From Agelas oroides (taxonomy: Eukaryota; Porifera; Demospongiae; Agelasida; Agelasidae), in the NCBI GenBank assembly GCA_949130485.1, contig OX422189.1, positions 6,977,620 through 7,041,619 of the forward strand: a stretch of DNA of 64,000 bases, given 5' to 3'. Below are positions 14,228-36,718 of the stretch, piece by piece. Within the stretch, counting starts at the first letter, position 1. Every line of letters starts with the position of its first letter. The notes below the pieces were generated by a model, which was not told the origin of the DNA, did no database searches, and worked only from the letters and a program-made list of their open reading frames with translations. Both the position numbers and the translations under genes were made by a program.

Positions 14228-14239
14228 TTAAAACAGAAA

Positions 14240-14385
14240 AACACATTCAGTATCATCCAGATTTGCATTGTACAAAACTTTTGGATGACTTACAGAATCA
14301 TCCAAATTCAGATGGTACAAATCATCCACTTTTCAGTTCTATATAAGAGAAGACAGGTTTGTATCATCCAAATTTGGATGATATT
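14240..14385. repeat. Tandem repeat, right part
   Basis: ATCATCCAGATTTG, AACTTTTGGATGACTTACAG and related blocks continue the 13000-13270 repeat after the TTAA element. Confidence 0.55.
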
Positions 14386-16411: not shown

Positions 16412-17677
16412 CTAGGAGATAAATCGATCACAAGTTCTAGTTACATACGACAGTCGCAATTTTGGAGTTGACGTATCCGAGTTGAGGCTCGGTTTCTGAC
16501 CGCGCAGATCAAACGCGAGACTCACACCAGGCTGAAATATCAGACAGTGCGTCAAACCACCAAAATGGAACATCCCTATCTGTTCCCCTTTTTTGATACG
16601 CTGCCCTTCGTAGACTGTGATCTCGCAGGTCGATACCTCGGCCATGCCAACAGCCAGAAAACACATCAGTCTGATTTGGGGATTGTCTGCTTCGATGTAG
16701 ATCATGGCTCTGGCTGCGACTTCGGTAATACACCCTTGCGATTCGTTTGGTCCGGCCGGGTCAAAGCCTTCTGCTAAGGTCTCCGAATAATAGCTCCCGT
16801 CTTGAACATGGGTTTTGATGACCTTGCCGCTCACGGGGCTGTGCCAGCGGTGATAGCTCAATGCGCTGAGAAAGGCCTGGTAGATGGTGCCCCCAACAAA
16901 TTTCTCGTAAAGAGGGTCGTTCGCAAGCATGAACTGCAAAGAGTATGGCTGCGATTTGATCCAAAATTTGTCGCGTCGTTTAACGTCTGTTGCGAGTCGG
17001 TAGGGGGCCGATTCACAGGCATTAACGATCACTGCGTCGTCATTGGGAGCTTCGATGGGACGCACACCATCGCGAAATTCCCGTGTGAAAAAGTCGTCCC
17101 AGGATGTAAAACCGTAGTGCGGCTTCTTTGGGTCGCATTTGAATTCTTTATCAAAATGCTTCATCTCCTTCATGGCTTCGTCACAGAACCATCCGTTGGG
17201 TGACTTACTATTCAAGACGTAGCACGAGTCTTTCGACTTTAGAAACACTGCCCACTCATTCAGGATCTTTTTGAACTGATGGTTGACTTTGTCATTTAAA
17301 AAGGCTGCAAATCCGCCGATTGTTCCCATTGACCAATTCAAGATGGCATTGATGGGGAAGCCGACGAGTGCACTATCGCTATACTCAGGTGCCTTTGTCA
17401 TGATGGCATTGATTAGCCGAAGCATCTGATGGTAATTCTTGACCTGTCGTTTGCCATTGGGATCCTTATTGAACGGAACTTGATCAAACATTTGATGAAA
17501 AAACATGTTTATTTCGGCATCGTTCTCAATAAGGTCCTTGAGCTCCCGAATTACGGGATGCAAAGGCTTCGCACGACGATAAGCGACTTCGACGTCCTCG
17601 ACGACATCGACGCCATCGACTTCTTCAATAAGTGCTTTCAACCAGTTGTCCAAAATTTTTGGTCCGAAGGGAGCCAT
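16412..17677 (-). CDS. Phosphatidylserine decarboxylase-family protein lacking the pyruvoyl Ser
   Basis: This intronless frame encodes 421 residues from the Met at 17677 (MAPFGPKILDNWLKALIEEV). An upstream in-frame Met at 17764 would add 29 residues, but the second copy at 32.2 kb aligns only from the later start region. The N-terminal third resembles the domain that precedes the catalytic part in fungal-type PSD-like proteins and tryptophan decarboxylase PsiD. The catalytic part shows DDFFTREFRDGVRP, an NACESAPY block, YHRWHSPVSGKV (catalytic His) and a C-terminal FHFGGLTHCLIF. In the family, GGST/LGST self-cleaves and its Ser becomes the pyruvoyl cofactor. Here that position is Leu (TTG, 16553-16555), one transition from TCG. 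It should therefore be unable to mature into an active decarboxylase. The substrate is unknown. It may be a pseudoenzyme, a recent inactivation or a base error. Confidence 0.8.
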   Translation of the reverse strand: MAPFGPKILDNWLKALIEEVDGVDVVEDVEVAYRRAKPLHPVIRELKDLIENDAEINMFFHQMFDQVPFNKDPNGKRQVKNYHQMLRLINAIMTKAPEYSDSALVGFPINAILNWSMGTIGGFAAFLNDKVNHQFKKILNEWAVFLKSKDSCYVLNSKSPNGWFCDEAMKEMKHFDKEFKCDPKKPHYGFTSWDDFFTREFRDGVRPIEAPNDDAVIVNACESAPYRLATDVKRRDKFWIKSQPYSLQFMLANDPLYEKFVGGTIYQAFLSALSYHRWHSPVSGKVIKTHVQDGSYYSETLAEGFDPAGPNESQGCITEVAARAMIYIEADNPQIRLMCFLAVGMAEVSTCEITVYEGQRIKKGEQIGMFHFGGLTHCLIFQPGVSLAFDLRGQKPSLNSDTSTPKLRLSYVTRTCDRFIS

Positions 17678-17976
17678 CGACCAACGCGATACGGAACAGT
17701 TTCGCACATTGTGTTCGGAAATGCCGTAAACTCGTATATCGGAGTTGCCGCAAAGGTAGACCACGAGAGCGCAATTTATATAAAAGCTTTGAGATGGGGC
17801 GGGGCAATTTTGATCTCAAAGTATTCCAATTACTGTGTGCAGTATAGAATTAATTAAAGACGTCTGTACAGTGAAGAAAATTTACAAAATTAATGTAATA
17901 GATCTAACACCTTCAAGATCCATTACATATCAAAAACGCTTTTCTGTTAACTAATGTATGCCAGATCTCGTACACA

Positions 17977-18711
17977 TTAGCTATTCTTGAATTCCAAAGC
18001 GGATGGCAGAGCAAATTTGGCAGACCTGACGACCGCAAGACTAGTATTGTTGGATAAACAAGGTGTTTCATCGAAAACTTTGTATAACTTTTGTGCATGG
18101 CGACCAACCTTGTACAGATAAAACGCCAGTTTCTCGCCTTCATGCGATCGAAACGTTATCGACGCTAATGCTAGTTTACCACTTTTCTTGATAAAACCCA
18201 CAAGTGTTAGCGCGAGTCGCTCTGCCACGCAGTTCTTTGTGTACATCTGAAATTGTACATGAAACTATCTCCGTTTTGTCTGCTAAGAATTCCACATAAT
18301 TACAAAAATTGTATTGGCATTATGCACCTAAATATGGCCTCAAAAGCAATTATATTTAGCCTCTTTTCCAGGCGCTAAGAATATGGACCTGATATATACT
18401 GCTCGCGCATGCGCAAAATATTAAAGTAACCTACATACTACGTAGTAAAACAAACACACAGCTTACTGATGTTTGCCAGCTGAAAGGCCACATTGCAGGT
18501 TTAGGCCCCCTATAAGAGAGAAGTGTTGACGTTATAGCAACGAGTTGCGCTGTGTTTTTCAAGACGATCGCTGTGCCAAAGAGTATTGTTCACGTTCCGT
18601 AGTATTTACCTGAAATGGGCGAACGGATAAATCATATTTGCGAGCAAGGAGCTGCATGAGCACTTTCATCTCATCCGCTTCAACAGAGAATGGTATGTGC
18701 ATGGCTGACAT
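17977..18711 (-). CDS. Two-exon gene of unknown function, 123 residues
   Basis: Exon 1 (18610-18711) starts MSAMHIPFSVEADEMKVLMQ and ends at CAG|GTAAATACT. Exon 2 (17977-18246) follows an acceptor atttcag and encodes 89 residues to a TAA, both in phase 0 with a 363-bp intron. The product is soluble, basic and without signal peptide or membrane helix. It contains LVGFIKKSGKLALASITF and KLAFYLYKVGRHAQKLYK. I do not recognise the family. It lies about 0.3 kb upstream of the intronless decarboxylase on the same strand. The clean splice junctions and an ATG after a short leader make a real gene likely. Confidence 0.55.
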
Positions 18712-19744
18712 CTTTTAGATGGAGAAATCCACTGACAGTGGTTGGTGTAGTGTGGTAGGAAGTTTCTAAGTTTCCCAGAAAAACTTGAAAAGCTGCATGT
18801 GCATGCGAAAACAGTATAAAGTAGGCGATTATCAAGTTTGAGTACAGTGACGGCGAACGAGGCTAATTCATTTGAGCATAGATAGTCACGCTACTATCTA
18901 TGATATGAGCTAGGTTTCTCTAAATTTCGTACTGACTCACACGTTCAGTTGAAGGGCTCAGAACCAAAATAGAATAGTTACGTACTGAGATTTAAAAAGC
19001 CGGGAAATAGTTACAGTGAACTCTTGACTTGGAGTCACTCAAGCATTTTGCACTGTTTGTAGCGAATTCCACTCGCCTTTCTATGATTTCTGCAGCACGT
19101 GTAGCCTTGTTTCCAGGCTCCTTCCCAACTCTTGGACCGCATAACGCACGATTTGTGAAAGCTGAGAAGAAGCAAACAAAAAAGAACGAAAGAATGAAGA
19201 AATTGGCACTTTCCCTACCGCACACTCGTGTTGAACTTTTTTCGTAGGCTTATCACGTACTTGTAGGCGAGTTTTTAGAGTTTTACTTAAGTATTACATA
19301 ATTATGATGCGTATTTATATACCGCCATGCAAGGTGCGGATACGCATCATATGTATTACCTGTGTGTGCTGCTCGCTAAGGCTCGCCCAGCGTGCCTACT
19401 GCAGTGGCATCGTTGGGTTACGGCAGTATAGGCATCGCTGTATGGGCAGCCTGAGCGAGCAGCACAGATATCATGCATTTTTCGTCAAGGCACACAGCGC
19501 CAGTTCAGCTACACAGACATGAACTAAGCGGCTTTACACTCAAATCTCTGCTGTGTTTTAGCCTCGTTTACGAATGCATGATTCTTTATACCTGAAGTGA
19601 CCTCAACAAATGTGCATAACTTCTGTGACTAAGCACCCTACCATCACCGTCTGTCATGGTATCATTCATGCATAGCTCAGTTACAGAAACGAGATGCGTG
19701 CTTCAATTTGAGTTGTCTTCACTTCCGGTTCATTATTTTACGGA
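18712..19744. other. Intergenic, no gene recognised
   Basis: Likely contains the promoter of the small gene ending at 18711, without a recognisable TATA-like element. Includes a TAGCCTTGTTTCCAGGC foldback end near 19102 and a TGCTCGCTAAGGCTCGCC motif near 19369, part of a recurring GGGGCGAGCCTGAGC family. Confidence 0.45.
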
Positions 19745-19754
19745 ACGTACCGGA

Positions 19755-21115
19755 ACGGAACGGAACAGTTCCGTCACATTATTTCACGAAACGGAGCCGG
19801 TTAATTTCTACCGATTGCTTGCACAACTGGCATGCACGTAGTACTGCCTATTGCTCTAGCTGCTGGACGTGGTACTTGTTTCGATGGTAAGTAAGCGTTT
19901 ATGTACTCTGAGTTAAGTAAGTGCTGACAATACGGTAACGGGTTATATATATGTATGTAAGTACTTTGTCTCGGTCCCAGACCCAAAACCAACCCCAGCG
20001 CGGATCGCTTTCAGTATCGCGCGCGGGGAAGGAAGGGTCTGGTAGATATAGTGTACATTCCTAAGGACGCATTACCGTTAATTCAGACTTGCTGAAATTA
20101 TCAAAATTTCTCACGTGGTCAAGAGAAGAGGGTGCTAAGTGCCAACACGGCCAGACTAGTGTGGGGAAGATGGAACCCGTGGGGAAGATGGAACCCGTGT
20201 GGAAGTGCTCTTTTTGCAGCAGTTCTGTGTGCAATTCCCGCAATCGACGGCGCCTGAATACTTCACGATGTTGGATGCTCGAGTCAGCGAGCATTTTCAA
20301 AGTGTTGGATGCAGCAGAGGAGTGTCTACCTTCTAACAGCGTGTGTAAGGCATACGTCCAGAAGGTAGAGAAGCTGCTGATGTTGGAGAGTAGCGTTAGT
20401 AGTACATTCAGCACGCTGAAGGCTCGCATCCAAGCGTTGGCACTGACAACAACGACGCCGGCAAGCGCCGTCTGCTCAGCGAGCGAAAAGAGCAAGCACG
20501 GCCAGTCCACATTCTCGTCCGCCTTCAAAGCGTCCAGCGTTGGAAGATAGCCGTCTGACGCCTTCCGCTGTGTCAGCGAAGACGACATCGAGCCATGAAA
20601 CGCTTTTCGAGTAGCCACTTCAACGTCGCTGCTTGTATCCGCCATCACAGTTTTCACAACACTTTAGAATTATCACGCGATTGCGAAACCGCACTTCCGC
20701 GTTCTCAGCACTAATTTTATTTGCGTCATTGAGATTATCTGTTGAACAATTTGATTGGATCCGCCAAATATTTGGCGGAGTTTAAGAAATGCAGGCTATA
20801 TCTACCAGACCGTTTTCCCGCGCGTTATACTGGAAGCGATATACGCGCCGGATGTGGTCTGGGGACGAGACTAGTAAGTATTCGGTACTTTCATCATGCA
20901 GCATGTTAAATTAGAATTGTTGGCCGAGTGCAGCAACTGTACTAAACGAACTTGAGGCTCGACAAAAATTGGCCGTATAATTGGTCAACGCGCGACACTT
21001 GAAAAACCTTTGCTTACTGTCCAAACAGTATCACGGCCCGTAACTAGAACATTTTAGCACATAGATGTATGTGCTATTCCGTTCCGTAAAATAATGTGAC
21101 GGAACTGTTCCGGTC
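19755..21115. mobile_element. Nested inverted repeats around a coding-like core
   Basis: Outer arms: ACGGAACAGTTCCGTCACATT near 19760 pairs with AATGTGACGGAACTGTTCCG near 21092. Inner arms: 19972-20047 (GTCTCGGTCCCAGACC ... GGGTCTGGTAGATATA) pair with 20800-20871 (TATATCTACCAGACC ... GGTCTGGGGACGAGAC), each about 75 bp. The inner pair encloses about 750 bp with long reading frames on both strands. The ends match the family seen at 57411 and 59340. This may be a foldback or MITE-bounded segment that captured or carries a short gene. Confidence 0.5.
20089..20550 (+). CDS. Coding-like frame with Cys-rich start, strand uncertain
   Basis: On the plus strand a 153-residue frame reads MLKLSKFLTWSREEG, then WKCSFCSSSVCNSRNRRRLN and CLPSNSVCKAYVQKVEKLLM followed by a helical, coiled-coil-like tail. 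The C-x2-C start and Cys-containing helix resemble the short treble-clef-like fingers found at the front of some invertebrate zinc-finger or transposon proteins. I cannot name the family. On the opposite strand 20061-20657 is open for 198 residues (MADTSSDVEVATRKAFHGSM onward) with a good initiation context. Only one of the two is likely real. An 18-bp direct duplication (GGGGAAGATGGAACCCGT) lies near the plus-strand start. Confidence 0.35.
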   Translation: MLKLSKFLTWSREEGAKCQHGQTSVGKMEPVGKMEPVWKCSFCSSSVCNSRNRRRLNTSRCWMLESASIFKVLDAAEECLPSNSVCKAYVQKVEKLLMLESSVSSTFSTLKARIQALALTTTTPASAVCSASEKSKHGQSTFSSAFKASSVGR

Positions 21116-21935
21116 CGGTCCTATACATGGACTGCAGGAAGTTGCATGCCCTCTCGCTGCTATCGGGGGCTCGGTGCGCTCTTGATATTGGTTTGGAATT
21201 ATGGTTTACAATAATCACTCTTGACGATTTATCCAAGGCCATGCGTTAGGTAATCATATAATCCGAGAAAGATAGCATGTAAAACTATACTTTCATGTAT
21301 TAAAAAAAGATTCTTGCACTTCATTTATCTGCCTCATAACAGTTTTTGAAACTCTATCGTACATCTACAGCAAACATAATTAACTTGTTGCTTCCTGTCT
21401 TCATGCAGCCAGACTGCGTTTATTGGTTCCATCCCTATTTTTTATAAGCACACAATTGATGGGTGAGGTTTTGGTGGCAATCCACCGATTGTCAACTGTA
21501 TTTATGGTTCTTGAAAAGCTATGAACAAAAATGGAACAAAGATTGGCAGAAGGGAGTATTCTAGGCCCGAGTATAGTGAAACGTACCATGATAGTTTATT
21601 AGTACTGTTTATAGCAATGATGACCGTACTCGCTAGAATCACTAATTCAGTATAATTCAGTATGGGTACCAAGGTGGAAATTTTTTATACTAATAGTCGA
21701 TCGCCCACATGGTTATTCAGTTCTCTTTTTTTTTGTCCTTTCAGACTGTGGAAGGAAACAATAATATTAAGTTCTAGCCTAACCCTCTGATTTGTTACTG
21801 GTGTCAGTGCTAGCTCTTTGAAGCTTGATGGAATTGTGTGTGGGTTGAAGGATAGTAGTTTGGAATTTCTTTGATCATCTGCTTATTGAACCATGGTTTT
21901 TATAGTAAATACATTTGCAAAATATGAGCAATATA
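21116..21935. other. Intergenic, repeat-derived
   Basis: No gene seen. The right part (AGCTCTTTGAAGCTTGATGG near 21811) is the start of the repeat that recurs at 22618 and 23796 and, reversed, near 25250. Confidence 0.45.
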
Positions 21936-22434
21936 TTCTTGAAGGAGGCACGTCATAATACCTTGAAGTAGGCACACCATATACCTTGAAGTAGGCACAC
22001 CATGGTACCTTGAAGTAGGCACATCATAGTACCTTGAAGTAGGCACACCATGGTACCTTGAAGCAGGTACACCATGGTACCTTGAAGTAGGCACATCATG
22101 GTACCTTGAAGTAGGCACACCATGGTACCTTGAAGCAGGTACACCATGGTACCTTGAAGTAGGCACATCATAGTACCTTGAAGTAGGCACACCATGGTAC
22201 CTTGAAGTAGGCACACCATGGTACCTTGAAGTAGGCACATCATGGTACCTTGAAGTAGGCACACCATGGTACCTTGAAGTAGGCACACCATGGTACCTTG
22301 AAGTAGGCACACCATGGTACCTTGAAGTAGGCACATCATAGTACCTTGAAGTAGGCACACCACGGTACCTTGAAGTAGGCACATCATAGTACCTTGAAGT
22401 AGGCACACCATATACCTTGAAGTAGGCACACCGT
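21936..22434. repeat. 24-bp minisatellite, about 20 copies
   Basis: Unit ACCTTGAAGTAGGCACACCA plus four bases, tandemly repeated with recurring variants (CACATCATAG, CAGGTACACC) that themselves form higher-order groups of several units. Because 24 is divisible by three, all frames stay open and produce repetitive false proteins on the minus strand. A single unit stands at the same place in the sister repeats at 22750 and 23900. Confidence 0.92.
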
Positions 22435-22540
22435 ACCTCTGATTGGTCACTCCAGTTTTAGAGTTCACTGAACTGGTGGCTATACTATGAAGAAATTTCA
22501 CATACATAGTTACCATCTGTCATCACCCTCACATTTCAAA

Positions 22541-23485
22541 TAATGAACATCGATGTGCCAGCCGGTGTTTGTGCTCCCCCTTGCACTCGACACACAAACT
22601 CCCTCACATTTCAATAATTAGCTCTTTGAAGCTTGATGGAAATGTGTAGTTGTTGATGGATGGTAATTTTGAATTCCTTCAATCATAGCGGTCATTCAGT
22701 GAACCGTAGTTTTTGTAGTAAATTCAATTGCACAAAATGAGCACTTTGTTCTTTGAAGTAGGCACACCATAGTACTATAGCAAATCTTGCATGCACAGTA
22801 TCCTGTTACAAGTAAAGAGGTATATGCAACTTGAGAACTGGGTTATGCAATAAAGTCCTTAGATCAGGTTCCACAACCCTAGCAACCAAAAGCTGGATAC
22901 AGTACAGTCCGTGAGCCATGTGTTTTGCTCCTGCTTCAACATTTCTGACATTTATACCATATACATAGCCGTGGACCAAACAACTTCTGCAGGGGCATAC
23001 GTGTAAGATCAAAGAAATACTAACTCTCACTAGAAATGCTGATTTATAGGCTATCTGCATGAAAGGAGATGCTAATCTAGCAAAAAGGGGAAGCTTCTTG
23101 ACTATTGTCAAATTGGAAGCACCTCTTCAGCTTCATGAAGTAGCCCAAATGTTTTTACAGTGATATATTTGAAACGGCTTTTCAGGCCATTTTGAAGTAG
23201 GAGCAGAGTACATGGCTCACAGAGTATATTGAATCCAGTTTTGGACTGTATCTTAGCTTGTTAAGCCTGAGTTTGCATGCAGTTACACCCATGATGCATG
23301 GTGAAACAGTATATGCAGAGCATTCTCAGCATGTCAGAACTGGATTCTGTTACTGCACATTGTGTATTCTGGTTTAGCTTTTGGATTCAGGACCAACTGG
23401 TTTGTCCACCTGCATTTAAGTCACCATTTTCTTTCCACTCAGGGTGCTGTTAGCCTTGTAAATTATTTTATAACACAATCTATTC
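22541..23485. repeat. Segmental duplication, copy A
   Basis: Aligns block by block with 23633-24990: shared starts GAACATCGATGTGCCAGCCG, TTAGCTCTTTGAAGCTTGAT, ATCCTGTTACAAGTAAAGAG, GAAATGCTGATTTATAGGC and ACTGGTTTGTCCACCTGCA appear in the same order. Copy A lacks a roughly 110-bp block and the mobile element present in copy B. No coding content was seen. Confidence 0.8.
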
Positions 23486-23632
23486 ACCTGAAGACCAGTG
23501 CATATCTCCCTAAAAACAATAACTCACTTTGCCATAAGTGCTCCACCCATTTAAGCCCATCCATTCAAGCCATAAATGCCCCATCCCCATATCCCAATTT
23601 GTTTTAACTTCACACTTCATGTATGCATGGAA

Positions 23633-24546
23633 ATAATGAACATCGATGTGCCAGCCGGTGTTGGTGCTCCCCCACTTGACACACAACTCCCTCACATTTC
23701 AAGAACTAGCAAATGGCTACCACAGACACTTGTCTGCTATAGCTAATTTAATTGAAATGGTTCACACGCCTAGCAGATAAGTGTCTGGGCTAATTAGCTC
23801 TTTGAAGCTTGATGGAAATGTAGTTGTTGATGGATGGTAATTTTGAATTCCGAACCCTAGTTTTTGTAGTAAATACAATTGCACAAAATGGGCAATTTGT
23901 TCTTTGAAGTAGGCGCACCATAGTACTATAGCAAATCTTTGCATGCACAGGTTGAAATGTATCCTGTTACAAGTAAAGAGGCATATGCAACTTGAGAACT
24001 GGGTTATGCAATATAGTCCTTAGATCAGGTTCCACAACCCTAGCAACCAAAAGCTGGATGCAGTACAGTCCATGAGCCATGTGTACCATATACATAGCCA
24101 TGGACCAAAGAACTTGTGCAAGGGCATATGTCTACGATCAAATAAATACCAGCTCTCACTAGAAATGCTGATTTATAGGCTATCTGCATGAAAAGAGATG
24201 CTAATTTAGCAAAACGGGGAAGTTTCTCGACTATACACTTTTTGGAAACACCTCTTCAGCTTCATGAAATAGCCCAAATGCTTTTACAGTGATATTTGAA
24301 ATGGTTTTTCAGGCCATTTTGAAGTAGGAGCAGAGCACATGGCTCACAGAGTATTGAATCCAGTTTTTGACTGTACCTTAGCTATGCATGAACATTTGTT
24401 AAGCCTGAGTTTGCATGCATACAGTATACACCCATGATGGTGAAACAGTATATGCAGAGCCAGGGGCGGAGATATGGGGGGGGGGGGGGGGGGGGGGGGG
24501 ACAGGGGGGCTTAGGCCCTCCCACTTTTCAGATTGGGGGGGCTCAG

Positions 24547-24582
<36 letters not shown>

Positions 24583-24990
24583 TGTTCTACTAGTTGTACA
24601 GAGAAATACAATATCATCTCGTTTCCACACCCCCACAGCTTAACATTTAGAACATGAGCCCCCCCCCCCCCCCCCCCCCCACTTCTTGGTAGCTGTCTCC
24701 GCCTCTGAGAGCATTCTCAAAGCAAGTTATTTGACACAACAAAACCATATTATACATCTCCATGTATTTTCCTGATAGAAGTAGCATTTATCTGGCTCCT
24801 CCTTTGTGGGTGAAGCTGTATTTATTATAGCATTGTGGAAAAAGCTTTTTAGAAAAGTAACTGACTGTACACTGTGTAATGGTTTAGCTTATTGATTCAG
24901 GACAAACTGGTTTGTCCACCTGCAGTTAAGTCTTCCACTCAGGGTGCTGTTAGCTTTGTAAATTTTTCTTTTTTATGCACATTCTACGCA
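23633..24990. repeat. Segmental duplication, copy B
   Basis: Tandem partner of 22541-23485 in direct orientation. It contains an extra block at about 23700-23795 and the insertion at 24461-24707, which together with small indels account for most of the length difference. Confidence 0.8.
24461..24707. mobile_element. hAT-like MITE with 5-bp target duplication
   Basis: The left end CAGGGGCGGAGATATGG and right end (read inward) CAGAGGCGGAGACAGC are inverted repeats. AGAGC occurs on both sides (24456-24460 and 24708-24712). Copy A of the duplication has the uninterrupted site ATATGCAGAGCATTCTCA at 23311, showing the empty target. Long G and C runs lie inside. The ends resemble those of the hAT element at 32739. 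Confidence 0.85.
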
Positions 24991-25189
24991 ATTAATGACC
25001 ACTGCATGTGCTTAGTGGTTGATAGGGTTGTAGAAATTGATCTATGAACTTGAGTATCACACCATCCTGCTTCTCAAGTTTCAAACCTTTTACTTGGAAC
25101 CGGATACATTTGAACCTTCTAGCAAGTATATAAAACTTTGGGTGGCCAAATGTTTGCAATTGTGTTTACTACAAGAACTACAGTTCACT

Positions 25190-25290
25190 AAGCAAGTGAC
25201 TACTATTAAAGAAATTCCAAACTACCATCATTCAACACCCCCACAATTCCATCAAGCTTCAAAGAGCTAGAACTTCATATGCACCATCTG
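25190..25290. repeat. Inverted copy of the 21.8 kb repeat
   Basis: AATTCCATCAAGCTTCAAAG and its left flank are the reverse complement of 21811-21880. A further reversed segment (GAGGGTGATGACAGATGGTA, 25416-25435) corresponds to 22511-22530, and partial copies recur near 26205 and 26455. The region 25-26.6 kb is thus built of inverted pieces of the same family. Confidence 0.6.
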
Positions 25291-25475
25291 CTGGCTCCAT
25301 CATCAGGTTCTAGACTGGATAATAGCAAGCAGATGATGCTTAACTAACTGCATTGCAAATTGATTTAGATAGCAGACAAGTGTCTGTGCTAGCCATTTAC
25401 TTGTTATTGAAATGTGAGGGTGATGACAGATGGTAACTATACGTCATTTCTTGATAGTATACTGCAAAAACAAAT

Positions 25476-25920
25476 TGGTTAATTGTTTTAACAACAGAGA
25501 GGTTACCCTGGTTGCAGACAAGCTGAAGAGACAGTGGTTATGTGTCATATATTTTGCTGATTGCACAAGACAACTGGAAGGAAGCTTCTCAGACTATCTT
25601 ACAACCAGATCTTGCAGTTAGTAACCACTGAATATCTGCATGTGAAAGATCACACCTGCTTGTATCAAAGAGCATGCAATAACAACCACAATCTTGCAGA
25701 TATAGTAACCACTGAACATCTGTGAGTAAGTCACCAACTTCTATCAAAAGCATCATATTGTGCAGAATTAGTGACACCCTCAAGGATGATCTGAGGGTTG
25801 TCAGCTGATTTGGGCTCAGGTTGCTTACGCAATTAACCTCCAATACCAAAGTAAACTCCTCATAACCACTGTCTCCTCAGCTTGTCTGCAACCAGGTTAA
25901 CCGGTTAAAACAATCAATCC
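25476..25920. mobile_element. Inverted-repeat element with about 60-bp arms
   Basis: Left arm contains CTGGTTGCAGACAAGCTGA and GACAGTGGTTATG. The right arm is its reverse complement, CATAACCACTGTCTCC ... CAGCTTGTCTGCAACCAG, ending in a GGTTAAAACAATC block that matches the left GATTG/GGTTAATTGTTTTA start. The 300-bp interior has no recognised gene. Confidence 0.7.
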
Positions 25921-26108
25921 CTTTATTGCAGTGAATTGAGTTAGTTCAGTCACCCTAGAGTAACCAATCAGATGTTAGGCCAGGACTTATTTTTGTCTCC
26001 CTTCCCCATGCTGAAGGATCAAAGAAACAGGACCAAAGAACTGTGTAGGTGAGTGACTTTTATTATACAATAGAAAGATAGATGGGTCAATAAATAAATA
26101 AGAAAATA

Positions 26109-26159
26109 AATAAACAAACAAACAAACAAACAAACAAACAAACAAACAAACAAACAAAC
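26109..26159. repeat. AAAC microsatellite
   Basis: Uninterrupted (AAAC)n tract of about 12 units following an AAAT-rich stretch. Confidence 0.95.
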
Positions 26160-26598
26160 CATCCTGGTACCCTATTATGCGTAGTAAATTACTACTATGA
26201 ATTCAAAATTACCATCCTTCAACCCTGACACCAATCCAGCTTCAAAGAAATTGCACAGACACTTGTCGCCTTGTTCCCAGGTTGTCAGGATTCGGGAACC
26301 AGGCTACTTGTCTGCTAACCAATCTATACTACTTCATACGCATCTAGGTTCTGGACCAGATAACAGCAGCAGATGAATGCACAACTATAACTTCATTGCA
26401 AATAATTTAGCTAGCAGAAAAAGTGGCTGTGCTAGCTCTTTGCTTGTTAATGAAACATGAGGGTGATGACAGATAGTAACTGTGTATGTGAATTTTTTAC
26501 AAGAAAATAAAAAACATTGAAGACGTAGGAATGGCACACCAAAAACTACGCGAACAAGGTAGGGATGATACAAAAGTGAGGGTATATAATATAATAGT

Positions 26599-26667
26599 CC
26601 CATTCCTGCATCTTTGGACACCATTGTGTCCATTGTGTCCATTGTGTCAAAAAGATGCAGGAATGGG
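26599..26667. repeat. Hairpin with 17-bp perfect stem
   Basis: CCCATTCCTGCATCTTT at 26599-26615 and AAAGATGCAGGAATGGG at 26651-26667 flank a loop made of three CATTGTGTC units. The minus strand is open through it with a hydrophobic leader further up (26780-26860), but a secreted gene is not convincing. Confidence 0.7.
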
Positions 26668-26929
26668 GCTGTTGATTGTCAGTCTTCTGATTGTGATCGT
26701 GCTGATCATCATCCTCCTGAATATCAGTCTGTGTTAGATGATCATCTTGCTTCTTGTCTTTTCCATCCCTCTTAACAACTGCAATAACATTCAAACACAG
26801 AATGGATAAAACTACTAGCAAACAAAAACTGCAACAGTTCAAACTCCATTGACAACAACAAAATTGCAATCTCAGGCTCGAATGTACCTAGGAGATGCTG
26901 TGCGTGGTCAGCCAGGATGCTTCTTTTGA

Positions 26930-27165
26930 TCACTATACACTGTGACCCTCAACTGTTTTCTCTTCGAACAACAGCTTTGTCGGTGAGTTTGCATCCAAGA
27001 AATGTTGGGTGCAACGCTCACCACATTTCAGCTCCTTTATTAGTTTGCTGCGGAGATCATCCACCTTGTAGTTGGATCCAAGTTTCTGAACGACAAGATC
27101 AAGGCGGATGGCCAAACAGTGGGGAGAAAGGAGAAAGGCTGTCCCGCCGGCATCTCAGGATGACA
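26930..27165 (-). CDS. Possible exon of an unidentified gene
   Basis: A minus-strand block after an acceptor-like tcctgag reads to a stop at 26930 and contains CLAIRLDLVVQKLGSNYKVD and IKELKCGERCTQHFLDANSP, which looks like a helical, charged protein segment. The region beyond (27.3-28.1 kb) is CpG-rich and could hold a promoter. No family was recognised and no partner exon was confirmed. Confidence 0.3.
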
Positions 27166-27299
27166 TTCTGTAGAAACTGCATGTGATATAAGCAAAGTCA
27201 GGTACTGTACATACAAAGTATGTAAAGAAACTTATACAAAATGCTTTGTCACATGGGAAGCCACAACATGAAGCCATACCACCCTCGTAGGCGGTCCTA

Positions 27300-28640
27300 G
27301 ACAAATTATACATGCAGTTCGCCAAAGTCCAGCTAGAAGTTGGTTAATCGTGGCAGCGGCCATATCCTCTCAACGAGCTTCGCTGACAAACGCAGGTAGC
27401 CACTTGTTCAAAAGTGATATCGTCGGGTTCTCAAGCAAGTGATCTGGCCGGGACACTTCTCGTGTCTATTTTGATTCGTCTGCTTTCTCCAAGCGTCGAA
27501 CACGCGTAACGCCCACTGGGTACTTCGCTCGCGCGGTATTTTTCGGCGTATAATTATCCCTTACACGCAGTCTCCAGTTCGCTCCCACTGCACGTACTGA
27601 AACGGCGTTCCGCGGTAACTTTCTCCTTCCCTTTACCAAGCGTTAGCTTCAGCTTCTTTTGCGGCGGTACGGTGGGTTCTTGAAGTCAGCGTCGTCGTTT
27701 GCCTGCGCCGCCGGTACACAGCACTGCCATTCGGAGCACCACGGTTCTCTTGGAGACAGCTTGGATTATCGTAGAATCCCGATCTTAGCGGCTCACGCGT
27801 TCCTGCCATCGCCAGGCTCTTCACAACTAGTCGCAACTGGTTTGAATCGCAGTTTGAATTGGTTGCTATGGAAGCCTTTCATCTTATGGCTTCCCATAGT
27901 GACAAGCCAATCAACACGCAGTATATAGTGTCTGCGATATAGGTTACACCGTTCGCAGTTTTGATAGCGCCCTCGCGGCTTCGCCCCTCGGGGGCTATCA
28001 AAACTGCTTTGGGTATAACCCACATCGATCGCAGACACTACTGTGTGTTAACTAATACAAACCACGTGACATAGTAGGCATACTAGGAGTACGCATGAGC
28101 ATGATGCCTCGCGCCGCGCCGTGCCAGTGCGTATGTGCGCATTGCGCATGCGGATGGGCCAAGTGGAGCAGGTGTCACAAATAATTTAGTCCGAAGGACT
28201 ACGGTTGAATCGAACATGAAAGTGAGCATAATTTATACCTGGCTTGTGAAGACTCTCCACAACGTGCTTTCTTCCTTTGCACTTTCTCTTGTTCTCTTCT
28301 TGCTCTCTTGGCTTTTTTGTACATCGACTTCGTTGCTTCTCTTTCTCAGTGTCGCCAACCGTCGGCTGCGTTCAGCACTCGACTCCGCAAAACATGCACG
28401 TACGTTGCGGAGGACAAGCCGCGCTGTCCTCCCCGTCCTCCATTGTCAAGAAGCGCCGTTCTTCCCTGTCCTCGACCTCCATCGTCAGTGCACGTGACGC
28501 ATGAGTTCCTGAGCTTGAGCGTGCACGTGAGTGCAAATGATTGCAAATTGACATTCGATATTCCTGAGCGTGACCGACACGTACGTACGTACGCACGTAC
28601 ATACGCACGTACATTGCGAGAATAGATCCCTCATTCAAAG
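27300..28640. other. CpG-rich region, promoter-like, no gene recognised
   Basis: Base composition is markedly richer in G+C and CpG than the surroundings. Several open frames occur on both strands but none shows a known domain or splice-supported structure. Contains the hairpin at 27926-28040 and an ACGTACGT-rich tract at 28580-28615. Confidence 0.4.
27926..28040. repeat. Long-armed foldback element
   Basis: TAGTGTCTGCGAT begins and ATCGCAGACACTA ends this 115-bp unit. Inside, CAGTTTTGATAGC pairs with GCTATCAAAACTG. The arms are about 48 bp with a few mismatches around a GC-rich loop. It is a typical MITE-sized hairpin. Confidence 0.8.
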
Positions 28641-28879
28641 CCTCGCGCTAATGCGCTCGGCAATTACCTTGTGCACTTCCTGGCACCTGTACGTGGATGC
28701 CACATCCCTGAAAAAGGGGTCTAGAGCACTCTTGCTCTCCCCTTGCCAGGTCATTACTGACGGCACCGTCCTTTGGCTAAAAGCAAGCCAGACAGTGTCT
28801 CTGGGAAGCTTTACCAAGTCAGCCAGCTGGATGGAGACAAAGTGTATAAATGCCAGCAAGGAAATTAGTATTACCCCTA

Positions 28880-29346: not shown

Positions 29347-29350
29347 TTAA

Positions 29351-29606
29351 GGTGGCACGGTACCCTGTATTTTCAAGGTCAACAAACCTGGAATCCAAGT
29401 TGATAGTCTTCTTTGTCTTGTTAAAATTTTAGCGCACATTCCGTTTTGGGAGTCTCAAACCGTTCACGGTCCGTAAAATTGGGGATTTTCCCCATTTCCT
29501 GTCGGCATTGCCATCCAATAATCAGTTTATAATTAAGTTAGTTAAGATGTGGCCTGGCGGCACCCTTCATGTGGTGCTCGGAACTTTGAAGATAAGCTTA
29601 GATCGA

Positions 29607-29645
<39 letters not shown>

Positions 29646-30371
29646 GGAGTTTAGTAGAGTGCTGTAGTGTCAGTAGCTGTGAGTAGTGCGTGATGCCTGC
29701 TTGTGAAAGCAAGCTTGTGTCTAGAAGCAGCAGAAAGGCCACAGTGGCCAAGACTGTATTTGTTGAGTAGGCCCAGGTCTCGCGGCCGTATGCCTAGTCT
29801 AGTTGGTGACCGTGGCCAGGTGCTTCGAGTGCTGGGCTGGGCTTTAACTAGAATACGCAATTTATCGTTTGTGCTACAGTCTGACAGACAAGGGAGCTGA
29901 ACGGTGGCTGTGTGTGGAACAGAGCCGTGAGTTGTTTAGCGACATAAGGGGGAGAGGTGGGGCTAGTAATGCTTGCTTCCACTCGTGAATGAGCCCCTCC
30001 CGTAGACAAGCTGTGAATTTTTCGAAATGTGCATTCATTTTGGTGCAGTCAAAGTTGTCCATTCCAAGAGTAGTGACAAACATGAGTCTAGCCTGACTTT
30101 GAGAGTAGCTTTGAACAAAAGCTGGCATAGATTGATTTGAGATACATTGGTGGTTGGGACGCTACCTACAGTGAGCGTGTAGATGCGTCCATCGAGTGGC
30201 AATTTTGGGTTCATGAATATATTAATGAGCTACTAAAACCCTTTTTAAAATTAGGCAAAGCAAGATTGCCCTAAACCAAACTCTAACCATGAAACTAGGA
30301 GTAACCCTGGTCCTGACTGTAACCCAAGTTTATGTTTTCGTTAACCTCCGCCGAGGGACGACCGTGCCACC
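29351..30371. mobile_element. TTAA-flanked element with GGTGGCACGGT ends
   Basis: TTAA at 29347-29350 and 30372-30375 brackets the inverted ends GGTGGCACGGT and ACCGTGCCACC. Interior: an A-tract at 29611-29640 and short frames without a recognised domain. It is inserted directly next to the end of a different TTAA-type element (28880-29346). Confidence 0.75.
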
Positions 30372-30487
30372 TTAAGCACCCAGCCTTTCTCTTTAAGTGT
30401 TTTATGATCAGCAAGACTTGTACAGTTGGCCAAAAGCGTCACGGAAAACAGCCAAACATGCAAGTGTGTGGTAGCAAAAGTGCAATT

Positions 30488-30493
30488 TTTCTC

Positions 30494-30536
<43 letters not shown>

Positions 30537-30540
30537 TCCC
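30488..30540. repeat. CTTT microsatellite
   Basis: About 12 CTTT/TTTC units in a row. Confidence 0.95.
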
Positions 30541-30596
30541 TCTTACGTACTTTCTTTGTAGTGTTGCAGTGATGTGTTTTCCCTGGTTGTGAGTGC

Positions 30597-30968
30597 CTAA
30601 TTCAGTTGGAGAATGAGCAAGTTGCAGTAGTTCTTTAACTGGGTCAGGAAATCAATGGTAAAGGTTTGAGTGGGTGTGTCCTTGATCCATTCCAGACCTA
30701 GCATGACCTCAGTGAAACGTAGCAGGTCAGTTTCCAGGTCAGGAAGGTGTGGTGCTATTGCTGCAGGGACGTTGCTCAGGAGACAGGATCGGACAGGTGA
30801 GAGTGCTGGGCACTTGGCAGTGAAGTGGAAGTGGTCTTTGGGCTCAGAGTGGCAGAGCTTGCAGATGGGGTTGTTTGGTTGGGAATGGTTATTTCTAAAT
30901 TGGAAATGGCTGGCATCTGCCTCCAGCCCATCACACCCTGCTAAGAGGCAGATTCGGAAGTTGTTTTA
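30597..30968 (-). mobile_element. C-terminal tail of a non-LTR retrotransposon ORF2
   Basis: On the minus strand the frame is open to a TAG at 30597 and reads FRICLLAGCDGLEADASHFQ, then NPICKLCHSEPKDHFHFTAK and CPALSPVRSCLL. The C-x2-C...H...C arrangement after an 'LLTG'-like block is the usual zinc-knuckle tail found downstream of reverse transcriptase in Jockey/RTE/CR1-type LINEs. A stop lies just upstream and no reverse transcriptase motif was found within reach, so only a 5'-truncated remnant is present. Confidence 0.65.
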
Positions 30969-31079
30969 GCAGGTTGCTTAGGCATACTGGAGGGTGTGAT
31001 TTTCAAGTGTGGGGCCAGTCTTCCAATCAGGAGGGCACAGTCAACTGGGGGTAGTTCTCGCATTGATGTTGCATGGTGA

Positions 31080-32227
31080 TGTATGCTTCGATATCAAGGA
31101 GACACTTAATTGAGCATTTTCAGGATTCCTTGTTGTGTGGTGTTTTGAGTAGCTGTTGGATGGAGGGGAGGCATGCAACAAGGTCTTTCATGCAGGTAGC
31201 AGTCATTCCCTTTGCATTGGGGTTTGTGATTCTCACTTCAAATATTTGCTTGGGAAGATCAACAGCTTGCATGTTGATAATAGAATTTATGAAGGCCAGC
31301 TGTCTCGACAGCTGTGTGGTGCCGAAATCTGCCGTCTGCTCTTTCGTTGGCGATAACTCAGATTACAGATATCACTGGAAGACGTATAACGTACGAATAC
31401 AAAATCCGTATACTTACACTTGGATCGCTTCCCTACACAAAGCTACATCTGGAGACGTTGGATCTCGATATTGGACGCATTGATCTTAACTTCCTGTTTT
31501 TCAATTATTCCCCGTAGATCTTCTTTGGTATTTGTCCATAGGCGTGCACAGTAGTAGAGGGTTGGGGGGGAGAAGCATGCACAAAATTTATGATGGCGGC
31601 ACCACCATGCACTCAGAGTAGAACCTGAACGTCCACTTGACGAAGGGACTGAGTGGGTTGTTGGTCGTTCGACTGAATCAATGGACTCCTGCTCCTTCGA
31701 CTGAATCAGTGGACTTTATATGCGTTACAAAGTATATCCGATTTACGTACGGCACGCTACCTGCTAGCTAGCTGGGGGCCATGTAGATCACGTGAGCATA
31801 GCATGGCGCCCGGCCCGGGCGCTTTGGGGCCGGGGGGCATACGCCCTCCTCCGCCCCCCCCCCCCCCGCCCCCCCCCCCCCCCCCCGTAGTACCGCCACT
31901 GTATTTGTCACTGGCGGAACGACTGTCTGGTGTTCAGTTCTCAGGCTCGAGTTTGTGGTGATGGGTCACCGACTCGAGTTTTGTGAGTGATAACTGATGC
32001 GAGTGCATTTGCTTTGCTTTGAGAATCTGGTTTTAGTAATGCACTTTCAGTCTACTATCTAGCTATGTTCACTTTTATCTATAGACTTGCTGACAGTGCA
32101 ACACGTTCAAGTTACGCGAGAAAGACCAGACCTCTCTCCTACTTTTTGTGTGGGAGTCTGCCTCCGCGAGAGTAAGGGTAGCTAACCACTGTGTGGTTAA
32201 AACATCCGACTTGTTAACATTTTTGCA
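31080..32227. other. Intergenic with G/C homopolymers, upstream of decarboxylase copy 2
   Basis: No convincing gene. A C-rich tract at 31852-31886 is followed by GTAGTACCGCCACTG, which resembles a CAGTGGCGGTACTAC-type element end. 31540-31575 has a similar GGGTTGGGGGGGAG start, so the interval may be a degraded hAT-like element. The last 200 bases would form the 5' region of the decarboxylase copy. Confidence 0.4.
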
Positions 32228-32738
32228 GTGAGAATGTGTGAAACTGTGCTGGAAAAATGGTTGAAAGCCCTAATCGAAGAAGTCGATGGCATTGATGGAG
32301 TCGAGAAAGTCGAGGCGAAGCCTTTGCATTCTGTTCTTCAGGAGTTCAAGGACCTAATAGAGAACGATGCTGAAATTAATATGTTTTTCCATCAAATGTT
32401 TGATGAAGTTCCGATAAGGCGACCATACAATAAGAGCCCAAATGCCAAACCACAGGTCAGAAATTACCATCAGATGCTTCAGCTAATCAATGCCATCATG
32501 ACAAGGGCACCTGAGTTTAGTGCTGATGGAATCATCACTTTTCCAATCTATTCCATCTTACAATGGTCAATGGGAACAGTCGGCGGATACGCAGCCTTTT
32601 CGAACGCCAAAGTCAACCTCCAGCCAAAAAAAAAAGATCCTGAATGACTGGCGAGTGTTTCTAAAGTGAAAAGACTCATGTTACATCTTAAATAGCCACC
32701 CACACAAAGGATGGTTCGGTGAAGATGCCAGGAAGATG
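32228..32738 (+). pseudogene. Decarboxylase copy 2, N-terminal half, broken
   Basis: Reads MRMCETVLEKWLKALIEEVD and closely follows the gene at 16412-17677 through the N-terminal domain (MFFHQMFDEVP, LINAIMTRAPEFS, WSMGTVGGYAAF). It then fails: an A10 run (32626-32635) carries one base more than the frame needs, and after correction a TGA at 32667-32669 sits where the paralogue has Ser. Homology continues (KDSCYILNS, GWFGEDARKM) to 32738, where a hAT transposon is inserted. Confidence 0.85.
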
Positions 32739-35700
32739 CAGGCCCGTAGGCAGGGGGGGTTCGAGGGGGTTCGTACGAACCCCCCTTTTGGTCTCCAGTA
32801 TAGTTTTATACACTAGCTAGCTCCATATTCTAACGCTATACTGATTATAACTAGTCCACATACCTGAAGAATCACGGAACACTGGTGCGGGCACACACTC
32901 GAACTCGTGCGCGCTACCCGGAATGCGCGTGCGCAAGTACGCGTGTACAAATTATGTGAAATTAATTGCGCTTGAGAACGAAATCTTCTACAAAATGAAA
33001 CGGCAACATCCTAAAGACATTCGATTCTTTTTCACAAAGAAAAACAAAACTCATGGAGACTTGGAGTGTGGTAGGTGCACATGCATGCTATACCATTTTC
33101 TGCCAAATTAGTTTTCCTATGATGCCTTTCCTTCTGATATGATTTCAGAATGCTCTGATGATACAACTGCATCCTCTCAGTCAACTGAAGAATTGTGTGA
33201 GAATCCATCTGGCACTAGTGAAGAATCATGTGACAATCTGTCAGCAGATACGCATACAACAGCAACGACAAAATTATTGGCATCTCCAGAGTCTTCAACT
33301 CCTCCTGAACCATGCCTTGACATTGGTACAATAATAACACCAACAAAATCCATCAGTGATATTTGTCACACAGTGGGTAATCTTTCAAATGCTGAAAAGA
33401 TTTCCTTTCTACTTCAACATGTGCCCCCACCTGCTGTTCTGCCAACTACCTTCTCACATGGCTGTAACCGAAAGTTCAATATTAGCTGGCTTACCAAATA
33501 TCCATGGCTAAGATACAGCCCAAAACTTGATGCGGTACTCTGTGGGCCATGTGCTCTGCTCCTTCGAGACGTGAGCCGAAAGGACAAAGGTTGGCTTGTG
33601 AACAGGCCATTTTCTAACTGGGTGAAACTCAGTGAGGTTCTACAGAATCACTCCAAGCTTACATATCATCGTGATGCTGTGCAGTCAGCTGATGTATTGA
33701 AAATCAGCATTGAAAACCCAGCCTCCAGAATTGATGTGCAAATGAGCAGCTCCCTACAGTCTCAGATGGCTGAAAATAAGCACATTCTTCGCCAAATTGT
33801 ACGAGCTGTTATGTTTTTGGCAAAGCAGGGTTTGGCATTTCGAGGTGACAAAGAAGATATTCATTCCCAGAAGAATCCTGGAAATTTTTTGGCCTTGCTA
33901 AACACTTTTGCTGAAACTGATAGTGTGTTACATGCCCACCTGCACAAACCCCGAGCAAAAAATGCCACGTACTTATCTCCAACTACCCAAAATGACATAA
34001 TCAATGTCATTGGTTATGATGTGATTCGTGCTGGAATTACCACTGAAGTCAGGAAAGCAAGATTCTTCTCTGTTCTTGCTGATGAAGTCTCCAGCCATAA
34101 CGTAGAGCATTTAGCCTTATGCCTTCGCTTTGTTGATGAGAAGTGCGATATTCGAGAGGAGTTTGTCACATTTGTGAAACTAGAAAGGGTCAGAGCAAGT
34201 GATATCACCACCGCCATTGTCAATACCTTGGAAGGACTTGGATTGTCTCTGAATGAGCTGCGAGGTCAAGGGTATGATGGAGCAGCCACTATGAGTGGAC
34301 ACAAGTCAGGTGTGCAAAAGCAAATAAGAGATAGACAGCCAAAGGCTGTTTACACTCACTGTGCTGGGCACTCTCTCAACCTTGTGATAGTGAGTTCATG
34401 TTCTGTTCCACCTGTGCAGAACTGTATAGACCAGATAAAGTCTTTGACTCTCTGGATCAAGTCCTCTCCAAAGCGAGAAGGACTTCTGAAGGCTGTTTAT
34501 CAGCGTGGTGTTCAGAGTGGCTCAACTTCAACTCGAGCTCCAATTCTGAATGTGTGTATCACACGTTGGGTTGAGAATATCGATGGTTGGGAACGGTTTT
34601 CTTTGAGTCATCCTTTTCTAGTTCAAATGTGCGAAGTCATCATTTATGGGAATAGTGAATTTGAAGCATACAATGATGCTTGGTCACCAGAGGACAAGAG
34701 AAATGCATTGGCCTACTTGAAAGCACTTGAGTCTTTTGAGTTTGTATATGTTCTCATTTCCTTGCAGCGATCTCTCCTGTACTTAAAAGAAGCTACAGTC
34801 AAATTACAAGGCCAGAGCCAGGACATCGCTTATGGCATTACCACAATTCAGCGATGCTGTACAGAATTGAAAACACTGAGAGCAGATGTAGATAGTTACT
34901 CACATCGCATCTATGAGCACAGTTGTAGGGTTGCTGAGCGATCAGGGATCACTGTCACAATGCCACGTGTGACTCAGCGACAACAGCATCGTCCAAATCC
35001 AGAATCGAACACTGTTGAGGACTACTTTAAGTACACAGTGACAATTCCTTTTCTTGATCATCTCATCAGTGACTTATCATCCAGATTTGATTTACATACA
35101 AAGCGAGCAGCATCACTTCAGGGGTTGTTACCAACAAGAATAACTCCAGACTCCTCTGTGCAAGATATTCAAGAAGCAGCCACCTTTTATGCAGATGATT
35201 TGCCCAATGCAAGTATCATAGATGAGGAGTTTCACCTTTGGAAGTCCAGGTGGCTTTCTGTTCCTCAGAAGGATAGACCACAGACACTAAGTGAATCTTT
35301 GAGACAGTGCTGTCCACACAGCCTTCCAAACATCTTTGTGCTACTCAAGTTATTTGCCACTCTACCTTTAAGCTCTTGCTCATGTGAGAGGTCAGCATCT
35401 GCTCTCAGACGACTCAATAATTACCTGAGGTGTACACAAACCGAAGAAAGGCTGAGTGCTCTAGCACTAATACACAGTAACTATGAGGCACAAATTGATG
35501 TTGACCAAGTCTGCAACCTATTTCTAGAAAAGTTTCCCCGTCGAATTGAGCGTGCAAGTCTATTGTTTATGTAAACTTATCCCCGGTATTTAGAATATAT
35601 ACTACTCAACTAGTAAGTACTGTAATTGGATTTCTGTCTGAAATACTTGAGGTACGTACTATTGCTCGATGGAACAAAAATTTATCGCCCTACCGGCCCC

Positions 35701-36011
35701 TCACTCATATTGAAAATATGGAATTGGGAACGCATGTTACAATTTCGTACACTGTGACAGCTGTTAAATGCGTTCCCAGACTTTAGATGTAGCAGAATTC
35801 CTCCTTACCTTACATCTTACCGACCTTCTGTAGCCTTTTCGTACTTTGCCTCAGAATGGCCTGAGATGCGATCTCAGAGCATCTAAATATGAAAAATTTT
35901 CTGGGGGGGGCATGCCCCCAGACCCCCCTAGTATTGCGTGCTTACGCACGCACACGTACGCTTCGCGCGCTGAAAATAACCCCCCTTCTGAAAATCCTGG
36001 CTACGGGCCTG
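32739..36011 (+). mobile_element. Complete hAT transposon, 3273 bp
   Basis: Inverted ends CAGGCCCGTAGGCAGG (left) and CAGGCCCGTAGCCAGG (right, read inward) enclose an intact transposase gene. The 5-mer AGATG is duplicated at 32734-32738 and 36012-36016. Removing the element restores continuity with the paralogous decarboxylase, so the boundaries are firm. Most hAT elements duplicate 8 bp, but a subset makes 5-bp duplications, and this one fits that subset. It is inserted in a decarboxylase reading frame. Confidence 0.92.
32995..35574 (+). CDS. hAT transposase, DUF4371/ZMYM1-like, apparently intact
   Basis: Exon 1 (32995-33070) encodes MKRQHPKDIRFFFTKKNKTH and ends at a GTAGGT donor. Exon 2 (33149-35574) follows gatttcag, and together they give 833 residues in one frame. 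After a Ser/Thr-rich leader come a TTF-type zinc-binding block (WLTKYPWLRYSPKLDAVLCG with CxxC), the DUF4371 region, FFSVLADEVSSHNVEHLALC (first catalytic Asp), GQGYDGAATMSGHKSG (second) and YTHCAGHSLNLVI. The C-terminal dimerisation region reads LPLSSCSCERSASALRRLNN (catalytic Glu) and TQTEERLSALALIHSN. No stop or frameshift was seen. Such proteins cut and paste their own element, and the intact gene with matching ends suggests a recent and possibly active copy. Confidence 0.92.
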
Positions 36012-36718
36012 AGATGATGCCACATTTTGATAAAGAATTCAAGTGCGATCCAACAAAGCCGCACCATGGATTCACGTCATGGGACGACTTTTTCACTAGG
36101 GAATTTCGCAATGGTGTTCGTCCCACTGAAGCTCCCAATGATGACACAGTGGTCGTCAATGCCTGTGAAGCGGCCCCTTACAAATTGGCAACAGACGTTA
36201 AGCGACGCGACAAATTTTGGATTAAATCACAGCCATATTCTCTAGAGCACATGCTTGCAAATGATCCTCTAGTTGACAAGTTTGTTGGGGGTACTATCTA
36301 CCAGGCCTACCTCAGCACATATAGCTATCACCGCTGGCACAGCCCTGTGAGTGGTAAGGTCATCAAGATCCAACTTCAAGATGGAAGCTATTACTCAGAC
36401 ACTTTAGCAGAAGGCCTTGACCCTACTGGAACATGGGGATCGCAAGCGTATCTTACTGAAGTCGCAACCAGAGCCATGGTCTTCATCGAAGCGGATAATC
36501 CCCATATTGGGCTGATGTGTTTCTTGGCTGTTGGCATGAGCGAAGTATCAACCTACGAGATTACCGTCTACGAAGGACAACGTATCGAAAAAGGCCAACA
36601 GACGGGGATGTTCCATTTTGGTGGTTCAACACCCACTGTGGCTTGGTACATTAAACACCATTTGTATACAGCTGCATCCAAGCAATGGCAAACTGAGAGC
36701 AGTGCTGCACTACATTGA
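36012..36718 (+). pseudogene. Decarboxylase copy 2, C-terminal half, retains GGST
   Basis: Directly after the transposon, homology to the paralogue resumes: HFDKEFKCDPTKPHHGF, DDFFTREFRNGVRPTEAP, NACEAAPYKLATDVKRRDKF, YHRWHSPVSGKVIK and GMFHFGGST. Unlike the copy at 16.4 kb, the pyruvoyl-forming Ser is present (TCA, 36626-36628). Immediately after GGST a two-base shift and loss of similarity replace the conserved HCLIFxPG tail with an unrelated 33-residue end. An open frame that starts further left, within the transposon, is an artefact of the insertion. Confidence 0.85.

Follow-up and report, generated by a model that had tools for sequence, protein, structure and literature searches.

Two Damaged Decarboxylase Genes and Their Intact Relatives

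When two related enzyme genes lie close together and both appear to be inactivated, the question arises whether the organism has lost the enzyme or whether the damage affects superfluous copies. Such a pair is located in a stretch of 64,000 nucleotides from the demosponge Agelas oroides (C7:6977620-7041619, here called the window). One gene, the Leu copy, encodes Leu in place of the self-cleaving Ser of a pyruvoyl-dependent decarboxylase, and the other, the second copy, keeps this Ser and is broken by a frame shift, a stop codon, and a transposon. As an earlier note on this DNA correctly described, the two copies are oppositely oriented and approximately 15 kb apart. The note left it open whether the lineage has just lost the activity, whether the Leu form survives as a pseudoenzyme, or whether a third active copy exists. 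Our results indicate that both window copies are very probably ordinary pseudogenes of a small family that resembles the L-tryptophan decarboxylase PsiD, was probably acquired from bacteria, and has at least three intact members in the same genome.

The 259.3-Mb assembly, consisting of 141 contigs, was searched with the profiles PF02666 and PF12588. Both searches score the best candidates only, so that the locus counts are lower bounds. PF02666 was found in at least eight places, five of them being of the PsiD-like type and three residing on contig C19, while PF12588 recovered the same loci, at least five, among the matches listed (six matches, the second copy giving two). At least three of these loci, distributed over contigs of 10.5 Mb (C7) and 9.2 Mb (C13), are intact, each featuring a single long frame, both Pfam domains, and the motif GGST:

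C7:6910938-6912218: L002, intact, 426 residues, about 65 kb to the left of the window
C7:7061564-7062967: L001, intact, 467 residues with a run of GVD repeats, about 20 kb to the right of the window
C13:6504904-6506427: L003, intact, 507 residues with an extra N-terminal stretch

The motifs YHRWHSPV and SWDDFFTREF are conserved in all three copies, and the ratio of replacement to synonymous substitution rates (dN/dS) between L002 and L003 amounts to 0.13-0.19, indicating that these two genes evolved under constraint. Members of the family are apparently single-exon genes, with introns outside the frame being possible. Among the three possibilities named above, a third active copy thus fits best, in the form of at least three full-length frames with both domains and GGST, whose activity is predicted from sequence. 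The N-terminal extension of L003 comprises approximately 80 residues of coiled-coil-like appearance. L002 is 73% identical to L003, which equals its identity to a Methylococcaceae protein (73%).

Relationship to PsiD and to Phosphatidylserine Decarboxylases

In L001, L002, L003, and the Leu copy, the domain PSDC (PF12588) is followed by PS_Dcarbxylase (PF02666), both scoring over their cut-offs. This architecture and the GGS motif are common to the sponge family, the PsiD chains 8zia and 8x4q, and the PsiD-like chain 9jer; the motif YHRWH.PV is also present in 8zia. The closest matches in the PDB were 9jer (E 2.8e-81) and the PsiD L-tryptophan decarboxylases 8zia and 8x4q (approximately 1e-70), which we take to be the Psilocybe enzymes, whereas phosphatidylserine decarboxylase (PSD) chains ranked behind at approximately 4e-8. 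A self-cleavage motif of the form GGS(T/S) was found in L001, L002, L003, and the second copy. The cleavage motif of PsiD itself was reported as GGSS in the part of the publication considered (PMC6121855). The sponge copies differ from it by carrying GGST, and the sponge proteins are much closer to bacterial proteins than to PsiD.

Canonical PISD/PSD enzymes also use pyruvoyl chemistry and have the PF02666 domain in common with the sponge family, but their motif is LGST or LGSS. An alternative reading is that the intact members are phosphatidylserine decarboxylases acting on a lipid. Beyond the presence of PF02666, this reading is favored by a study on other sponges that names its sponge genes PSD and, in the section on them, assigns them to lipid metabolism (PMC4784904). 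However, L002 matched six NCBIfam equivalogs for phosphatidylserine or archaetidylserine decarboxylases, and all of them remained far below their cut-offs (97.3 versus 371, 73.5 versus 307, and 50.6 versus 111.75 bits, and three lower); the same applies to L003 and the Leu copy. The presence of PF12588 and the much greater proximity to PsiD than to the solved PSD chains likewise argue against a lipid enzyme. Moreover, the genome contains a separate gene of the PSD type: the three PF02666 pieces on C19 look like parts of a single conventional PSD gene that is divided into several exons and carries LGSS, and they gave no PF12588 match, unlike the apparently single-exon family with GGST. Hence, the lipid reading is considered unlikely.

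In PsiD, the prosthetic group that enters into the Schiff base is described as a product of self-cleavage (PMC12603985). By analogy with PsiD, the intact sponge copies would share this pyruvoyl chemistry: the chain would undergo autocatalytic cleavage at the Gly-Ser bond of GGST, the Ser would be converted to the pyruvoyl group, and this group would bind a free amino acid as a Schiff base and remove its carboxyl group.

Probable Decay of the Leu Copy after a Segmental Duplication

The Leu copy, its lesions, and the duplication in which it is embedded are located as follows:

16412..17709, minus strand: Leu copy, decaying PsiD-like decarboxylase, with an open frame at 16412-17677 from an internal ATG only
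17707-17709, minus strand: start codon common to the Leu copy and L002
17656..17660, minus strand: A run with one base fewer than its L002 counterpart, which breaks the frame from the shared start
16553..16555, minus strand: TTG (Leu) at the position of the self-cleavage Ser; L002 and L001 read TCG
16475..16476, minus strand: 7-nt gap relative to L002 and L001, leaving the C-terminal residues out of frame
10230..27346, minus strand: window side of an inverted segmental duplication, partner C7:6903924-6923498 (L002 locus), homologous in blocks

The substitution of the self-cleaving Ser was confirmed. In the translation GMFHFGGLTHC around 16553-16555, the motif reads GGLT instead of GGS(T/S), while the corresponding column is Ser in L001, L002, L003, and all 28 aligned bacterial relatives. 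These 28 rows, used for conservation and for the trees described below, were retained from 36 lines after removal of entries repeating a place already included (L045, L053, and L061), near-copies (L056 and L060), both L057 frames, and the second open reading frame (ORF) of L035. The exchange of TCG for TTG is a C-to-T change at a CpG; the window as a whole is CpG-poor, with an observed/expected ratio of 0.53. Leu at the cut site lacks the hydroxyl needed for the acyl shift, so that, by established chemistry, the Leu copy should remain uncut.

In contrast, the frame of the Leu copy, previously regarded as unbroken, proved to be open from the internal ATG at 17677 only, where it extends over 421 residues. 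The protein deduced from L002 (426 residues) begins with MCETVPYRVGRWLPSDQKILDNW. The ATG at 17709 is retained in the Leu copy, but translation from there halts after 23 residues, because the A run at 17656-17660 comprises five A in comparison to six in L002. Toward the other end, the 7-nt gap shifts the frame once more.

Duplication blocks are present on both sides of the Leu copy, which is inverted and located approximately 82 kb from L002 on the same 10.5-Mb contig. The six blocks differ by 1.1-3.6% substitutions (approximately 98% identity per aligned base). Substitutions affect 29 of 1270 coding bases (2.28%) versus 225 of 12490 flanking bases (1.80%; p = 0.23), and 41 indel events were counted in the flanks and two in the coding part. 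The Leu copy would thus stem from a recent segmental duplication in which the L002 locus was copied in inverted orientation (or, conversely, the Leu locus gave rise to that of L002), and it would have decayed afterwards. The Ser-to-Leu change resides in a redundant, decaying duplicate and is no evidence of pathway loss.

The substitution counts argue against inactivity of the Leu copy from the moment of duplication. Polarization of the changes with L001 assigned seven synonymous and seven replacement changes to the Leu branch and equal numbers to the L002 branch (421 of 426 codons), and dN/dS between the Leu copy and L002 was 0.26-0.34, or 0.29-0.51 with another cut. Assuming a replacement share of 75%, the probability of at most seven replacements among 14 changes under free drift is approximately 0.04. 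The Leu copy may therefore have been useful during part of its life, and some constraint after the duplication is possible. Yet these branch counts should not be pressed, since they are blurred by possible gene conversion: differences of L002 cluster at codons 91-113, where the Leu copy matches L001 and L002 partly matches the second copy, a pattern that suggests such an event. Furthermore, one of the two frame shifts is a homopolymer difference, and the A-run difference taken alone could be an assembly error, which is less likely for the 7-nt gap and the TTG.

The same data bear on the possibility that the Leu copy is a maintained pseudoenzyme, translated from the ATG at 17677, staying uncleaved, and regulating the active paralogues or binding substrate. 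The open 421-residue frame with both domains over cut-off and the number of replacements below the free-drift expectation agree with this idea, but the frame shifts near both ends do not, and the coding divergence is not below that of the flanks. In addition, the replacements on the Leu branch include G347R and S386L at residues shared by all 28 bacterial rows, as well as Y327C at a position occupied by Y or F only, whereas none of the seven replacements on the L002 branch falls on a position of either kind. A maintained function is very unlikely.

A further explanation, in which the Leu copy results from an error in the consensus or represents an L002 allele placed wrongly in the assembly, could draw on the high identity to L002 and on the lesion consisting of a single base in an A run. 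It is opposed by the inverted placement approximately 82 kb away on one contig with several kilobases of homologous sequence on both sides, by flanks that differ in approximately 2% of their bases and by 41 indel events, and by the 7-nt gap and the CpG C-to-T change, both being atypical of consensus errors. Misassembly of an allele was judged unlikely from the geometry of the duplication, and an artefact of any kind is given very little weight here. Decay of a duplicated gene remains the preferred explanation for the Leu copy.

Next to the L002 locus, a direct segmental duplication of 7.7 kb with 98.7% identity was observed (C7:6896000-6903736 and 6929436-6937156; L012, L014, and L015), containing an array of approximately 53-bp repeats; recent duplications are abundant in this arm. 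At the left edge of the inverted duplication, three ORFs on the minus strand (window 9137-11526) with SWIM, MULE/ZSWIM, and ALS2CR8 matches are perhaps pieces of a MULE-type transposase.

The Second Copy and Its Transposon

The second copy spans positions 32234-36632 and consists of two parts separated by an insertion:

32234..32738, plus strand: 5' part of the second copy (PF12588 part)
32739..36011, plus strand: hAT-type DNA transposon within the second copy, with an 811-residue frame at 33139-35574 and DUF4371
36017..36632, plus strand: 3' part of the second copy, corresponding to PF02666, with a frame that remains open up to and including GGST

It was confirmed that this copy keeps GGST, although its frame is interrupted by a shift and a TGA, a transposon has inserted into it, and its tail is lost. 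The Ser codon of GGST is TCA at 36626-36628, and PF12588 and PF02666 were matched as two pieces. The A run at 32626-32635 adds a net of 4 nt, a TGA occupies 32667-32669 in place of the Ser codon found in L002 and L003, 14 codons just after the start are absent in frame as judged from the compared translations, and the tail past GGST is unrecognizable. The contrast between Leu in one copy and GGST in the other is therefore real, but, since both copies are broken in frame, the complementary inactivation that had been proposed for the pair is a weaker pattern than claimed. The second copy would be an older paralogue, broken by several changes and the hAT-type transposon.

The insert is 3.3 kb long, has the terminal inverted repeats CAGGCCCGTAG, and is flanked at both edges by the 5-bp duplication AGATG. 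It scored 82.9 bits for DUF4371, which is over the cut-off and a domain that we take to be known from hAT transposases, and 18.9 bits for Dimer_Tnp_hAT, below the cut-off of 21.4. A typical hAT target-site duplication has 8 bp, whereas the exact duplication found here has 5 bp. Each of the exact 11-bp ends of the element occurs once within the 180 kb examined. To the right of the second copy, a tandem pair of approximately 750 bp with 84.5% identity is located (window 38077-39578), and many related fragments are present in the arm.

With both window copies broken, a recent loss of the activity in this lineage, all copies being inactive, could be envisaged, but it is contradicted at the sequence level by the three intact copies with GGST, YHRWHSPV, and SWDDFFTREF and by the low dN/dS between L002 and L003, and its probability is practically negligible.

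Bacterial Relatives and Origin of the Family

Six bacterial proteins align with L002 along almost its entire length at 60-71% identity (best-segment identities), namely one from a Methylococcaceae metagenome-assembled genome (MAG) at 71%, two from Bacteroidales MAGs at 67% and 64%, and those of Erwinia, Edwardsiella, and Pantoea at 60-61%; an Omnitrophota MAG protein reached 45% across residues 50-393. The bacterial proteins annotated as 'phosphatidylserine decarboxylase family protein' (Methylococcaceae, Bacteroidales, Erwinia, Edwardsiella, Pantoea, and Enterobacter) are collinear with the sponge proteins over almost their full length, 59-71% identical, and carry the same motifs. The N-terminus of the two Bacteroidales MAG proteins looks signal-peptide-like by eye, and the ORFs around the bacterial relatives look bacterial, likewise by eye. 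Within bacteria, the gene is patchy: three samples gave matches above the cut-off in 7 of 301 genomes (or 9 at E <= 0.001), in 8 of 395, and in 5 of 398, where each sample includes its center genome, picked for having the gene. Eight of 36 matching plasmid records were sampled as well, and one scan of viral contigs gave no viral relatives.

Two trees, built from 34 and 31 rows, united the sponge sequences L001, L002, L003, and the Leu copy in a single clade among the bacterial rows (97/96 and 99/97), without singling out a nearest donor. The trees did not include the copy interrupted by the transposon, and L051, L052, and L064, which gave weak or short PF12588 matches, yielded no rows for this set. 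The simplest reading of these sequence comparisons is that the family was probably acquired from bacteria. Two points count on the other side: a grouping of the sponge rows with the PsiD-type rows from the PDB, which form very long branches, was not rejected (p-AU 0.297 for both and 0.418 for 8zia alone), and the eukaryotes compared besides the sponge were PsiD-type PDB chains only.

For Amphimedon queenslandica, Conaco et al. (2016, PMC4784904) described, in the section considered, three phosphatidylserine decarboxylase genes that were putatively acquired by horizontal transfer, and a homologue was reported for Haliclona tubifera. Those genes resemble the present ones in their bacterial type and multiple copies and, by this likeness of description rather than of sequence, likely represent the same family. 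That section describes no dead copies for Amphimedon, whereas two were found here. A bacterial origin has thus been published before for the 'PSD' genes of a sponge; what may be new is the reading of such genes as amino-acid decarboxylases, and the published sponge genes of bacterial origin may belong to the PsiD type.

Possible Function and Substrate

The genomic neighborhood of the bacterial gene may hint at its substrate. In 5 of 15 places (Erwinia, Edwardsiella, Pantoea, Enterobacter, and Photobacterium), it follows a gene for a basic amino acid/polyamine antiporter. The Enterobacter antiporter passed TIGR00905 (496 bits versus a cut-off of 409) and also matched arginine-ornithine and histidine-histamine antiporters below their cut-offs. 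Systems for the decarboxylation of amino acids typically show such a pairing, which speaks for a substrate that is a free and perhaps basic amino acid. Against this, no antiporter neighbor was found at L029, L030, and L031, the closest relatives of the sponge gene, L031 offering short flanks only. In the open-licence literature, covered by titles and abstract openings, no report was found on PsiD-type enzymes in sponges or on the pair of bacterial gene and antiporter.

A more far-reaching reading, somewhat less likely than not, is that the intact copies are horizontally acquired, pyruvoyl-dependent decarboxylases of free amino acids rather than lipid enzymes, which would make a basic or aromatic amine for sponge signalling or alkaloids, in a family that continually gains and loses copies along one chromosome arm. 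If true, this would represent a route to amines unlike that of the pyridoxal phosphate (PLP) enzymes normal in animals. Concerning monoamine synthesis, TPH and TH were described, in the part of the study considered, as confined to Bilateria, apart from one Amphimedon sequence judged rogue (PMC10244343). PLP-type decarboxylases are present in the Agelas genome, with 14 PF00282 matches, seven of them on contig C11, so that amines could come from other enzymes too. These seven matches lie at C11:3344691-3656673, five of them in open frames of 555-565 residues, and apparently represent another expanded family of single-exon decarboxylases. A biosynthetic gene cluster around the two window copies was considered as well and found unsupported: the ten window ORFs scanned outside the copies comprised the three with SWIM, MULE/ZSWIM, and ALS2CR8 matches and seven without a match.

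Other Contigs of the Assembly

The 22.4-kb contig C141 looks mitochondrial, with 22 tRNA genes predicted by ARAGORN in the 20 kb read. Its cox1 gene has TGA codons in frame and is interrupted by an intron that harbors a LAGLIDADG gene. A gene for ATP synthase subunit c is present as well; among animals, its occurrence in the mitochondrial genome is indicative of a sponge. Another COX1 gene, which can be read without TGA codons, was detected at C107:16176-16808 (L026) on a 16.8-kb contig that is bacterial-looking by eye and perhaps represents a symbiont contig within the assembly.

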